From assembly GCF_900111745.1 (NCBI RefSeq), contig NZ_FOIJ01000001.1, forward strand, positions 372,001 through 436,000: 64,000 bases of DNA, given 5' to 3'. Positions 2,700 to 42,050 of the stretch are shown one piece after another. The notes under the pieces were generated by a model. The model was not told the DNA's origin. It searched no databases and saw only the letters and a list, made by a program, of their open reading frames with translations. Numbering within the stretch: the first letter of the stretch is position 1; each line of letters begins with the position of its first letter. The DNA is from Stigmatella erecta (GTDB lineage: Bacteria; Myxococcota; Myxococcia; Myxococcales; Myxococcaceae). The translations under genes and the position numbers were made by a program.

Positions 2700-4223
2700 T
2701 CAGGTCTGGCTGACGCGGACGGTGGTCCGCATCTCGCGGCCGGTGGCCGGATCCCTCGCGCGCATGGTGAGGATGCCCTCCACGTTCACGTCGAAGGTGA
2801 TCTCCACCTGGACGCGGCCCGCCTTGTCGGCGCGGATGCCCGAGAAGGTGAACTCCCCGAGCATGTCGTTCTGGGCCACCATCTCGTGGTCGCCCTGGAA
2901 GATGCGCATGGCCAGCTCCGTCTGGTTGTCCATGCTCGTGGTGGCCAGGAGCTGCTTGGCGTTGGGGATGGCCGCGTTGCGCGGGAACACCGTGTGGAAC
3001 GCGCCGCCCGCCTTCTCCAGGCCGATGGCCATGGGAATCACGTCCAGCAGCTGGATGCGCAGGTTGCTGTTGTCCTCCAGCGAGTTCGCGTAGAGCGCCG
3101 CCCCGATGGCCACCGCCTCGTCCGGGTGCACGCCCTTGCTGGGCGGCTTGCCGAAGAACTTCGTCAGCCGGTCCTGGACGATGGGCATGCGCGTCTGGCC
3201 GCCCACCAGCATCACCTGGTCGATGTCCTTGGTGGACAGGCCCGAGTCCACCAGCACGCGGGCGACGATCTGGAGCGACCGGTCGATGTGCTGGTTGGTG
3301 AGCTGCTCCAGCATCCGGCGCGTGAACTTCATCTCGATGTTCAGGGGCTGGCCCTGCGAGGTCATCGTGATGAAGGGGATGTTGAAGGGCACCTCCTCGC
3401 GCGCCGACAGGTCGATCTTCGTGCGCTCGGCCAGGTCCTTGATGCGCTGCATGGCCACCGGGTCCGTGGCCAGGTCGATGCCCGTCTTCGACGCGAAGTC
3501 CTTCAGGACGTGGTGGATGATGGCGTTGTCGAAGTCGATGCCGCCCAGGAAGATGTCGCCCCCGGTGGCCTTCACCTCGAAGACGCGGTCGCGGATCTCG
3601 ATGATCGACACGTCGAAGGTGCCGCCGCCCAAATCATAGACGACGACCTTCTCCTTGAGCCCCTTGCCCACGCCATAGGCGAGCGCCGCGGCGGTGGGCT
3701 CGTTGATGATGCGCACCACCTCCAGGTCGATGAGCTTGCCGGCGTCCTTCACCGACTGGCGCTGGCGGTCGTTGAAGTACGCGGGCACCGTCACCACCGC
3801 GCGCTTCACGGGGACCTTCAGGTGGTTGGCGGCCACGTCGCGGATCTTGTTGAGGATCTTCGCGCTGACCTCCTGGAGGGAGAACTCCTTCTTGCCCACG
3901 TCCAGGACGACGTCGTTCTTCTTGCCGGGGCGCATCGAGTACGCGACGACCTTCTTCATCGTCTCGACGATGTCGCTCTTGTACCCCCGGCCCACCAGGC
4001 GCTTGGCGCCGTAGATGGTGTTGCGCGGGTTGAGCTGCCACTGGCGCTTGGCCTCGAAGCCGATCAGCTCGTTGCCCTTGTCATCGATGGCGAAGATGGA
4101 GGGGATGGTGTAGTCGCCGCCCTTGTAGGGGATGAGCTTCACGTTCCCGCTCTCGTCGACATACGCCGCACACGAGTTCGTCGTGCCGAGGTCGATGCCG
4201 ATGATGGGCTCCTTCGTTTGCAT
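2700..4223 (-). CDS. Hsp70 (DnaK-family) chaperone lacking the C-terminal lid
   Basis: Hsp70-type ATPase. The nucleotide-binding domain is complete: IIGIDLGTTNS at the N-terminus, VVTVPAYFNDRQRQ, INEPTAAALAYG, YDLGGGTFDVSI and the VGGQTRMP adenosine loop. The substrate-binding beta-sandwich follows, but the protein stops at residue 507 (VRVSQT), where DnaK would begin its ~100-residue helical lid. The interdomain linker is atypical (LRIQLLDVIPM instead of the leucine-rich DVLLLDVTPL). It is therefore probably a specialised Hsp70, not the housekeeping DnaK, and no dnaJ or grpE is adjacent. Myxobacteria have many Hsp70 paralogues, some of them needed for motility and development (SglK, StkA); I cannot tell from sequence alone whether this is one of them. 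It is divergent from the prkA-like gene. Confidence 0.93.
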   Translation of the reverse strand: MQTKEPIIGIDLGTTNSCAAYVDESGNVKLIPYKGGDYTIPSIFAIDDKGNELIGFEAKRQWQLNPRNTIYGAKRLVGRGYKSDIVETMKKVVAYSMRPGKKNDVVLDVGKKEFSLQEVSAKILNKIRDVAANHLKVPVKRAVVTVPAYFNDRQRQSVKDAGKLIDLEVVRIINEPTAAALAYGVGKGLKEKVVVYDLGGGTFDVSIIEIRDRVFEVKATGGDIFLGGIDFDNAIIHHVLKDFASKTGIDLATDPVAMQRIKDLAERTKIDLSAREEVPFNIPFITMTSQGQPLNIEMKFTRRMLEQLTNQHIDRSLQIVARVLVDSGLSTKDIDQVMLVGGQTRMPIVQDRLTKFFGKPPSKGVHPDEAVAIGAALYANSLEDNSNLRIQLLDVIPMAIGLEKAGGAFHTVFPRNAAIPNAKQLLATTSMDNQTELAMRIFQGDHEMVAQNDMLGEFTFSGIRADKAGRVQVEITFDVNVEGILTMRARDPATGREMRTTVRVSQT

Positions 4224-4383
4224 CGTGCGTGAACTCCAAGGGTGAGCCGGGAACGGCCGCGGACGCTATTCATAGCCGACCGCGAGCAGGAGGAGGAAGG
4301 GGAACCGGGGGGCTTGCGGACACCGGCCCACACCCGGCAGGCCCCCGGAGGGCCCCTTCTCCACGGCCGGAGGGGAGGCGGGC

Positions 4384-40417: not shown

Positions 40418-40625
40418 GGTGTAGGGCCCCTCGCGTGGGTTCACCCTCCGTATAAACAGACATACTTCCGTCCAAACCAGCCATTTTTCCGCCGTCTTGG
40501 TGGGCTGTCTGTTGCGTTGGAGGAAAGCGCAGGGATGGACGGGAGGCCACTCGACCCCAGGGGAGATGGAGACTTATTCATCCCGGCGGATTTTCCACGC
40601 CCGCGATGCGGGAGGAGCGCTGCCC

Positions 40626-41066
40626 ATGATGGCCATGAACGCGATGCCGATGAACTCCACTCAGAGCATGCCGATGGGAAACATGATGCCCATGCCGATG
40701 ATGGGCATGAACCCGATGATGGGCGGCATGATGCCGATGATGGGCGGCATGATGGGCATGAACCCCATGATGAACCCGATGATGGGTGGCATGATGGGCA
40801 TGAACCCCATGATGAACCCGATGATGGGTGGCATGGGCATGCCGATGATGATGCCGATGATGATGCGTCAGATGGCGCCGATGATGGTCCGGATGACGTG
40901 TGAGATGGGCAAGGACGGCATGGTCTGCAAGATGATGCCGATGGAAGGCCAGGACATGGCGATGATGAAGGAGTGCTGCGACGCCATGAACTCCATGATG
41001 GCCATGGGCGCGCCGATGATGATGATGTGCAACGGCATGCCGATGATGATGTGCATGGCCCGCTAA
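40626..41066 (+). CDS. extremely methionine-rich small protein
   Basis: A 146-residue protein in which 66 residues (45%) are methionine, in MM-x and MGGMM patterns. A 14-residue unit (GGMMGMNPMMNPMM) is repeated twice in tandem. The C-terminal third also has six cysteines (TCEMGKDGMVCK; KECCDA; MMMMCNGMPMMMC). No signal peptide. Met/Cys richness suits binding of soft metals such as Cu(I) or Ag(I), or acting as an oxidant sink; this is inference. Start ATG at 40626 is chosen because GGGAGGAG lies 8 bases upstream; the upstream frame (from 40497) is not Met-rich and less likely coding. Confidence 0.8.
   Translation: MMAMNAMPMNSTQSMPMGNMMPMPMMGMNPMMGGMMPMMGGMMGMNPMMNPMMGGMMGMNPMMNPMMGGMGMPMMMPMMMRQMAPMMVRMTCEMGKDGMVCKMMPMEGQDMAMMKECCDAMNSMMAMGAPMMMMCNGMPMMMCMAR
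40743..40826 (+). repeat. tandem 42-base repeat inside the Met-rich gene
   Basis: Two head-to-tail copies (40743-40784 and 40785-40826) of a 42-base unit encoding 14 residues differ only at one third-codon position (GGC versus GGT). A partial third copy follows. Such near-identity implies recent duplication or gene conversion. Confidence 0.9.
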
Positions 41067-41073
41067 GGCCTGC

Positions 41074-41886
41074 TCAGCCGACTTCCTCGGCATAGGACAT
41101 CACCAGGTACATGGTGATGTCCTCGGTCCCGACGTTCCGGTACACGTGGGGCTTGTCCGCCTCGAAGAGGATGGCATCTCCGGTGGCCAGCAGGTGGTGA
41201 TCGGCTCCGATCTCCATCTCCAGCGTGCCCCGCGTCACGATGAGGTTCTCCATCGTCCCCGGGGGATGGGCGTCCGCCTGCTCCTCGCTCTGGGCCTTCA
41301 ACGTCAGCTCGTAGAACTCCACCCGGCGCGGCTCGTCGAACGGGAACAGCGCGCGGGAGGTGAAGCGCCCATCGTGCGAGGTGAGCCGCTTGGCCTGCAG
41401 CGCCCGCATCAGCCGGGTTCCCGCGCCGCCCGAGTTGCTGATGAGCGCCGAGAACGGCAGATCCAGCGCCCGGGCGATCTTCCAGAGCACGTTGATGGTG
41501 GGCGCGCTCTGTCCCAGTTCGATCTGTCCCAGCATGGCCCGGCTGACGCCGGAGGCCTTCGAGAGCCGCTCCAGGGACAGGCCCCGCTGGATGCGCAGCC
41601 GGCGCAGGTTCTTGCCCACCACGGGGGCCAGATCCTGGTCCGCGTCCGGGTGCGCCACCTCGTACGCCCACGCCGCCTCGCCTCCCGGAGGGGGGCTGGC
41701 CGCCGGAGCCTCTTCGGTGGGCTCTGGCGCCTCGGACGGCTGCGCCTCCGGCTTGCGGCGCGATGCGCCCTCGCGGCCCTTTCGCCCTGAATTCTCCCGA
41801 ACGGACTTCATACCGGCCAGACTATGACCCACACCCAGATGGGGATCCATGGGCGGGCGGTAGGAGAAGACCGCATCATCGAACAC
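41074..41886 (-). CDS. XRE-type transcriptional regulator with C-terminal cupin
   Basis: Helix-turn-helix (residues ~92-145: NLRRLRIQRGLSLERLSKASGVSRAMLGQIELGQSAPTI) plus a cupin_2 domain (~195-265: VTRGTLEMEIGADHHLLATGDAILFEADKPHVYRN). This layout is typical of small-ligand-sensing XRE-cupin regulators. A basic, proline/glutamate-rich stretch (~residues 26-85) precedes the HTH. The start is uncertain: GTG at 41886 is used because residues encoded between it and ATG 41811 look like real protein, but a frame disruption near 41895 suggests the native protein begins at 41942 in another frame. Convergent with the Met-rich gene, with 7 bases between stop codons. Confidence 0.8.
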   Translation of the reverse strand: MFDDAVFSYRPPMDPHLGVGHSLAGMKSVRENSGRKGREGASRRKPEAQPSEAPEPTEEAPAASPPPGGEAAWAYEVAHPDADQDLAPVVGKNLRRLRIQRGLSLERLSKASGVSRAMLGQIELGQSAPTINVLWKIARALDLPFSALISNSGGAGTRLMRALQAKRLTSHDGRFTSRALFPFDEPRRVEFYELTLKAQSEEQADAHPPGTMENLIVTRGTLEMEIGADHHLLATGDAILFEADKPHVYRNVGTEDITMYLVMSYAEEVG

Positions 41887-41942
41887 TGGGCGGTCCCGCG
41901 TTTCTTGCGAAAGTCCTCCAGGTCAATGACGGCGGCGCTCAT
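41808..41942 (-). other. 44-codon frame overlapping the XRE-cupin 5' end; likely the frameshifted N-terminus
   Basis: ATG at 41942 is preceded by AAAGAGG (spacing 7) and encodes MSAAVIDLEDFRKKRG, which looks like a genuine N-terminus, then shifts into a Trp-rich tail unlike protein (WIPIWVWVIVW). Its stop overlaps ATG 41811 of the regulator (ATGA). If the G-run at 41895-41897 (three bases) had one more G, this frame would join smoothly to the regulator. Either a one-base loss/sequencing error, or a coupled leader peptide. Confidence 0.5.
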
Positions 41943-42050
41943 GGAATGGCCTCTTTGAAATTGGACGTTTGTCCGCAAAAGCGGATGACTGAATATCCGT
42001 TGGAGCGGACGCGCTGTCAACGGCGGTCCGCCAAACAAGCGCTTGGGGGC

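Follow-up and report, generated by a model that had tools for sequence, protein, structure and literature searches.

The window analyzed here, a 64,000-nucleotide stretch of Stigmatella erecta DNA, carries a gene (positions 40626 to 41066, plus strand) for an extremely methionine-rich protein of 146 residues; the membership of this Met-rich gene in a sulfur regulon is well supported by computation. Judged from the sequences of its relatives, the protein is a member of a real, previously undescribed family, in which a variable repeat region precedes a conserved C-terminal domain. Within the sulfur regulon it probably serves as a cytosolic reserve of sulfur amino acids, of methionine and to some extent of cysteine. 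The module provides an undescribed family together with its regulator, operator, and regulon, making its function directly testable in culturable bacteria.

Translation of the frame gives 66 methionines (45.2%), the same count as in the initial annotation, and six cysteines at positions 92, 101, 117, 118, 135, and 143; the number of cysteines and their C-terminal location were likewise right, but the “C-terminal third” to which they had been assigned is slightly exceeded, as they occupy the last 37% of the chain. Methionine and cysteine together account for 49% of the residues, and sulfur accounts for about 14% of the mass. Because methionine stands at 2.2% in large neighboring genes, which makes 66 or more methionines in 146 residues a binomial event of P ~5e-68, a chance origin of this content is excluded. 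The frame is strongly conserved in relatives, the point on which the earlier reading of a real protein selected for methionine had been staked. The Shine-Dalgarno region (GCGGGAGGAGCGC, 40608 to 40620, plus strand) is of the GGAGG type and, like the ATGATG start, recurs in close relatives, in keeping with the earlier impression of a gene equipped for expression. By eye, no signal peptide is apparent at the N terminus.

All seven genomes of the genus carry the Met-rich gene, and of 195 genomes from the phylum, 30 have it. The 9.2-Mb window genome belongs to a family that, in named records, includes Pyxidicoccus, Myxococcus, Hyalangium, and Archangium; Sorangium has two copies in each of the two genomes searched. 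Homologs also occur in Tianweitania, Shinella, Rhizobium, and further Rhizobiales, with the gene found in 10 of 396 other genomes sampled from that order, and a Met-rich ORF with two C-terminal domains is present in probable Pseudomonas, judged as such by size, G+C, and gene content (L119 to L123). Near the two-domain ORF in L120 and L121 lies a spermidine-synthase-like ORF, a possible link to methionine salvage. Across 50 aligned homologs from Myxococcota and Rhizobiales, methionine stays within 38 to 50% while length, set by the number of GMNPMMGG-type repeats, varies from 95 to 265 residues; overall composition is 44% Met, 4% Cys, 1.6% for Leu, Ile, Val, Phe, Tyr, and Trp combined, and 0.03% His, so that methionine stands in for nearly all other hydrophobic residues.

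The conserved C-terminal domain, of about 72 residues (40848 to 41063, plus strand), shows the pattern M-T-C-x-M-T-x-x-G-M-x-C-x-M-M-P-M-D/E and, further on, C-C-x-x-M-x-x-M-M-x-x-G-M-P-M-M-M-M-C-G/N-G-M. An AlphaFold2 model of low confidence (mean pLDDT 66) predicts a strand-strand-helix-strand-strand order and has no fold match in the PDB. No sequence match to the protein was found in the PDB at E 0.1, and Pfam and NCBIfam profiles gave no convincing match to the window protein or to family members; on these four grounds a known domain was ruled out. If folded as predicted, this domain, built almost wholly on methionine, would be an extreme natural design, of use in protein chemistry and as a methionine-rich feed protein.

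Convergent with the Met-rich gene and directly downstream of it lies the gene of a SutR-like XRE-cupin regulator (41074 to 41811, minus strand; likely true start, an ATG at about 41811), an arrangement that recurs, with the two genes 2 to 172 bp apart, in 45 of 50 independent loci. The five exceptions to close pairing include a 3.1-kb gap in L036 and one of about 5 kb in G088 (L053); beside the Met-rich genes of L063, L064, and L066, no close XRE-cupin match was found. The pair also occurs in probable Pseudomonas loci. Upstream of the regulator in the window is a small ORF of 44 residues (41808 to 41942, minus strand; VIDLxxFRxxR ... WxPVWVWVxVWP), the TGA of which overlaps the likely regulator ATG (ATGA); small ORFs of about 43 to 67 residues, with a VIDxxxxR-like N terminus and a Trp-rich hydrophobic C terminus, precede the regulator in 39 of 52 loci from two phyla.

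The regulator combines an N-terminal HTH_3 domain (Pfam, 1.5e-15) and a C-terminal Cupin_2 domain (6.7e-11) in one protein. Over its whole length it is closer kin to Escherichia coli SutR (33.5% identity over 182 residues, 3e-37) than to PuuR (3.7e-9, mainly through the HTH), and its best and only full-length PDB relative is 1y9q (1e-24), in the cupin pocket of which D-methionine has been reported (PMC7901475). In Pseudomonas, regulators of the XRE-cupin type act locally to repress adjoining genes (PMC7901475), and a role in sulfur utilization is ascribed to SutR (cited in PMC11332829). The window regulator resembles SutR (YdcN), 1y9q, PsdR, and PauR in joining an HTH to a cupin and in adjoining its target, and it resembles SutR further in having sulfur genes as predicted targets; it is unlike all four in its N-terminal extension, the small ORF upstream, and the convergent Met-rich partner. 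Around more distant XRE-cupin paralogs, a Met-rich ORF was found in none of 20 stretches, and most of the neighbors sampled, such as malate synthase and isocitrate lyase, have no relation to sulfur. One paralog without a Met-rich partner (L149, G051:C90) has a B12-dependent methionine synthase activation domain nearby.

Aligned Met-rich promoters contain a recurring palindrome, TCCG-N6-CGGA. Its exact copies number 29 before Met-rich genes (250 bp upstream; 0.44 expected) and 50 before the regulator (1.2 expected), an enrichment of about 40- to 65-fold at the two positions, with expectations drawn from mononucleotide shuffles and with related genomes that are not independent of one another. 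Three Rhizobiales loci (L078, L080, and L082) have exact copies before their Met-rich genes. In the window, two exact copies, TCCGCAAAAGCGGA (41972 to 41985) and TCCGTTGGAGCGGA (41996 to 42009), lie 24 bp apart upstream of the small ORF and the XRE-cupin gene, and the Met-rich promoter has a near-operator with one mismatch (40447 to 40460), of which relatives carry exact copies. From position and enrichment we infer a candidate link, in which the XRE-cupin regulator would act through TCCG-N6-CGGA. In Met-rich promoters, the palindromes stand about 110 to 200 bp ahead of the start codon and clear of any TATAAC-like box, with which those in some cys promoters do overlap; this architecture was set aside as too weak a sign of the direction of regulation.

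A genome-wide search of the genus for tandem operators, with the reversed pattern as control, returned the promoter of the regulator, the genes for an M28 aminopeptidase and a TonB receptor and, in two genomes, a cysH-cysG-like-cysD-cysN operon, against almost nothing for the control; across 15 more genomes, tandem sites marked mainly the regulator promoter, plus some scattered matches. With a sharper motif, TCCGYTWTARCGGA, the search of 11 genomes yielded 29 distinct sites, as against none for the control. Among these are the promoter of the regulator, the cysH operon or cysD (G001, G006, G020, and G002), a metNIQ-type operon encoding a NIL-domain ATPase, a permease, and an NlpA lipoprotein (G020), an NlpA lipoprotein gene (G005), a position 266 bp upstream of a cysteine-synthase-type PALP gene (G133), Porin_O_P porins in several genomes, and amino acid or OpuAC-type transporters. 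An exact or one-mismatch site is present at the cys operon or cysD in all seven genomes of the genus, and in the window genome and three relatives the cysH promoter has a conserved one-mismatch site. Computation thus predicts sulfur-utilization genes (cysH-cysG-cysDN, cysK, and metNIQ) as targets of this SutR-type protein, a candidate sulfur master regulator for myxobacteria, and places sites also at genes with no obvious sulfur role, such as those for carbonic anhydrase, M28 aminopeptidase, and porins.

Some of the loci with operators have features of their own. The Porin_O_P porin that adjoins the sulfur operator in several genomes (L218, L220, L226, and orthologous sites) is a candidate sulfate or sulfonate porin, and the tandem operators before the M28 aminopeptidase gene of the window genome (L162:4199-6409, G000:C15) suggest that protein digestion is under sulfur control. 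Upstream of cysK in G133 (L231:2440-2725), a GGCCCG/CGGGCC-type stem comes after a possible Cys-rich leader peptide, MSLPLPTTGAQCCCCRVACACCCLAGPEHWESA, and cysH in G001 and G006 (L165, about 4100 to 4240; L166, about 4100 to 4260) has similar stems, with T runs, in front of it; the leader and stems look like cysteine attenuation.

The Rhizobiales modules have sulfur genes of other kinds around them: O-acetylhomoserine sulfhydrylase beside nitrogenase-like subunits, a combination that we take to resemble methylthio-alkane reductase loci, as well as cystathionine/cysteine synthase, DmoA/SfnG-type monooxygenase, taurine/sulfonate transporters, sulfur-transport and rhodanese domains, and methionine genes. 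These sulfur families are not among the recurrent ones of control regions, which came from nearly all of the same genomes; ABC transporters number 10 near the module and 5 in the controls. The XRE-cupin gene, which the initial annotation thought might be unrelated, is a conserved partner across phyla and has operators in common with the Met-rich gene, and gene context and shared operators point toward sulfur assimilation and lend no support to Cu(I)/Ag(I) binding or oxidant scavenging, which had been its leading ideas.

Because a regulator of sulfur assimilation adjoins the Met-rich gene and the predicted binding sites are shared, we take the protein to be a probable sulfur reserve rather than a copper binder. 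We posit that the XRE-cupin regulator would use its cupin pocket to detect methionine or some kindred sulfur metabolite, control sulfur uptake and assimilation, and switch the Met-rich gene in the opposite sense; surplus methionine could then be banked in a protein with one sulfur for every two residues, and proteolysis could recover this sulfur when it is short, with the folded C-terminal domain plausibly providing stability, assembly, or a handle for turnover. Composition, tolerance of length change, predicted cytosolic location, and regulon give the storage of methionine sulfur an even chance of being the function. The constancy of methionine content (38 to 50%) while repeats change the length counts in favor of a reserve; the presence of only a one-mismatch site both at the Met-rich promoter of the window and at the cys operon of its genome counts against it, as do the operator sites at genes with no obvious sulfur role, and storage would make no sense if the Met-rich gene were derepressed together with the cys genes under sulfur starvation. 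Somewhat more tentatively, at least two phyla, Myxococcota and Pseudomonadota, may possess a dedicated reserve of about 45% methionine, controlled by a methionine-sensing SutR-like XRE-cupin protein and co-encoded with a small Trp-rich protein.

Bacteria store carbon, phosphate, and nitrogen in polymers; to our knowledge, no protein store for organic sulfur is known in them. Our protein, if it is a reserve, would be the first known protein-based sulfur store in bacteria, and the newness of this kind of system hinges on the storage function. The literature that we searched held no report of bacterial methionine storage or of myxobacterial Met-rich proteins, and no description of the Met-rich family, of a bacterial sulfur-storage protein, or of the Met-rich/XRE-cupin module. 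The proposed role has a parallel in the Met-rich seed storage proteins of plants, delta-zein and 2S albumin, to which no sequence relation is claimed: the DZS18 zein contains 24% Met (PMC3514235), whereas the family described here is bacterial, cytosolic, and 38 to 50% Met. The MRP1 to MRP6 proteins of a composition survey (21 to 33% Met, with MRP1 of Nostoc also 12% Cys; PMC3514235) were likewise found by composition; the survey gives no family, partner, or regulon, and it is this description that sets the present proteins apart.

Among the alternatives, the one that survives best, though it is unlikely, is a cytosolic soft-metal protein that would store or buffer Cu(I), Ag(I), or Hg(II) on Met thioethers and Cys thiols, with sulfur control merely securing the supply of both residues. 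The composition, with Met and Cys and no His, would suit it, as would the MxxM and MxM motifs, and it draws strength from a weakness of bulk storage, the needs of which the conservation of the C-terminal cysteines exceeds: where Cys is replaced at three conserved columns, Met takes its place in 13 of 14 cases, even though TGY and ATG share no base at any codon position, a pattern that also suits soft-metal coordination. Individual cysteines are, however, missing from several family members, the operators mark sulfur genes, and no copper or silver family is among the 25 commonest neighbor families listed. The copper storage proteins Csp1 and Csp3 are small, sulfur-rich, Cys-lined four-helix bundles. 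The Met-rich proteins are also small and sulfur-rich, but methionine dominates in them (Cys, 4%), and the low-confidence model predicts a mixed C-terminal fold of one helix and four strands rather than a Cys-rich bundle.

Less probable again is an oxidant sponge, in which HOCl or peroxide would oxidize methionine and Msr enzymes would restore it, a role proposed for MrpX and BcrX. Very high methionine content fits this role, and Met-rich proteins are readily oxidized by hypochlorite (PMC3514235). MrpX and BcrX, which are also bacterial and Met-rich, are MXKDX repeat peptides linked to YedYZ/MsrPQ, in Brucella with an ECF sigma factor; the Met-rich protein, in contrast, lacks the MXKDX repeat and, on inspection, any evident signal peptide; neither MsrPQ nor an ECF sigma factor was seen as a partner, and no Msr family is among the 25 commonest neighbor families listed. 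Its partner is instead the convergent SutR-like sulfur regulator.

We give equally little credence to a gauge of methionine status, in which translation or stability of so methionine-costly a product would tell the regulator how much methionine is available; the Met-rich protein and the small Trp-rich ORF would then be regulatory partners of the XRE-cupin protein and not a store. Tight convergent pairing across phyla and the conserved small ORF overlapping the regulator start speak for such a device, the needs of which are exceeded by long variable repeats that extend the protein to as many as 265 residues.

That the true gene is the antisense His-rich ORF, as called in annotations of Shinella and Rhizobium plasmids, can be dismissed with near certainty: the in-register antisense is open, with His opposite each Met, but the sense strand is the coding one because these His codons are nearly all CAT (66 CAT and 0 CAC in the window; 3171 CAT and 21 CAC, of 3192, over 50 homologs) in a region that prefers CAC (16 CAT and 59 CAC in neighboring genes). 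Codon use thus ruled out the His-rich protein as a real product. Substitutions agree: the codon changes between L001 and L002 are five synonymous and one nonsynonymous in sense but none and six in antisense, and in the clearest close pairs (L001/L002, L001/L004, and L009/L054) changes are mostly synonymous in sense and never so in antisense, the remaining pairs having changes too few or too mixed to tell the frame. The window protein had no match on annotated plasmids; the Tianweitania homolog, used as a query, found the rhizobial Met-rich genes there. Wrong-strand annotation has probably concealed the family in at least some database records, and a sulfur store of this kind would have been overlooked partly for that reason. 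In two plasmid records the antisense of the Met-rich gene is entered as a “hypothetical protein” on the minus strand (L073:5649-6128 and L074:5664-6158).
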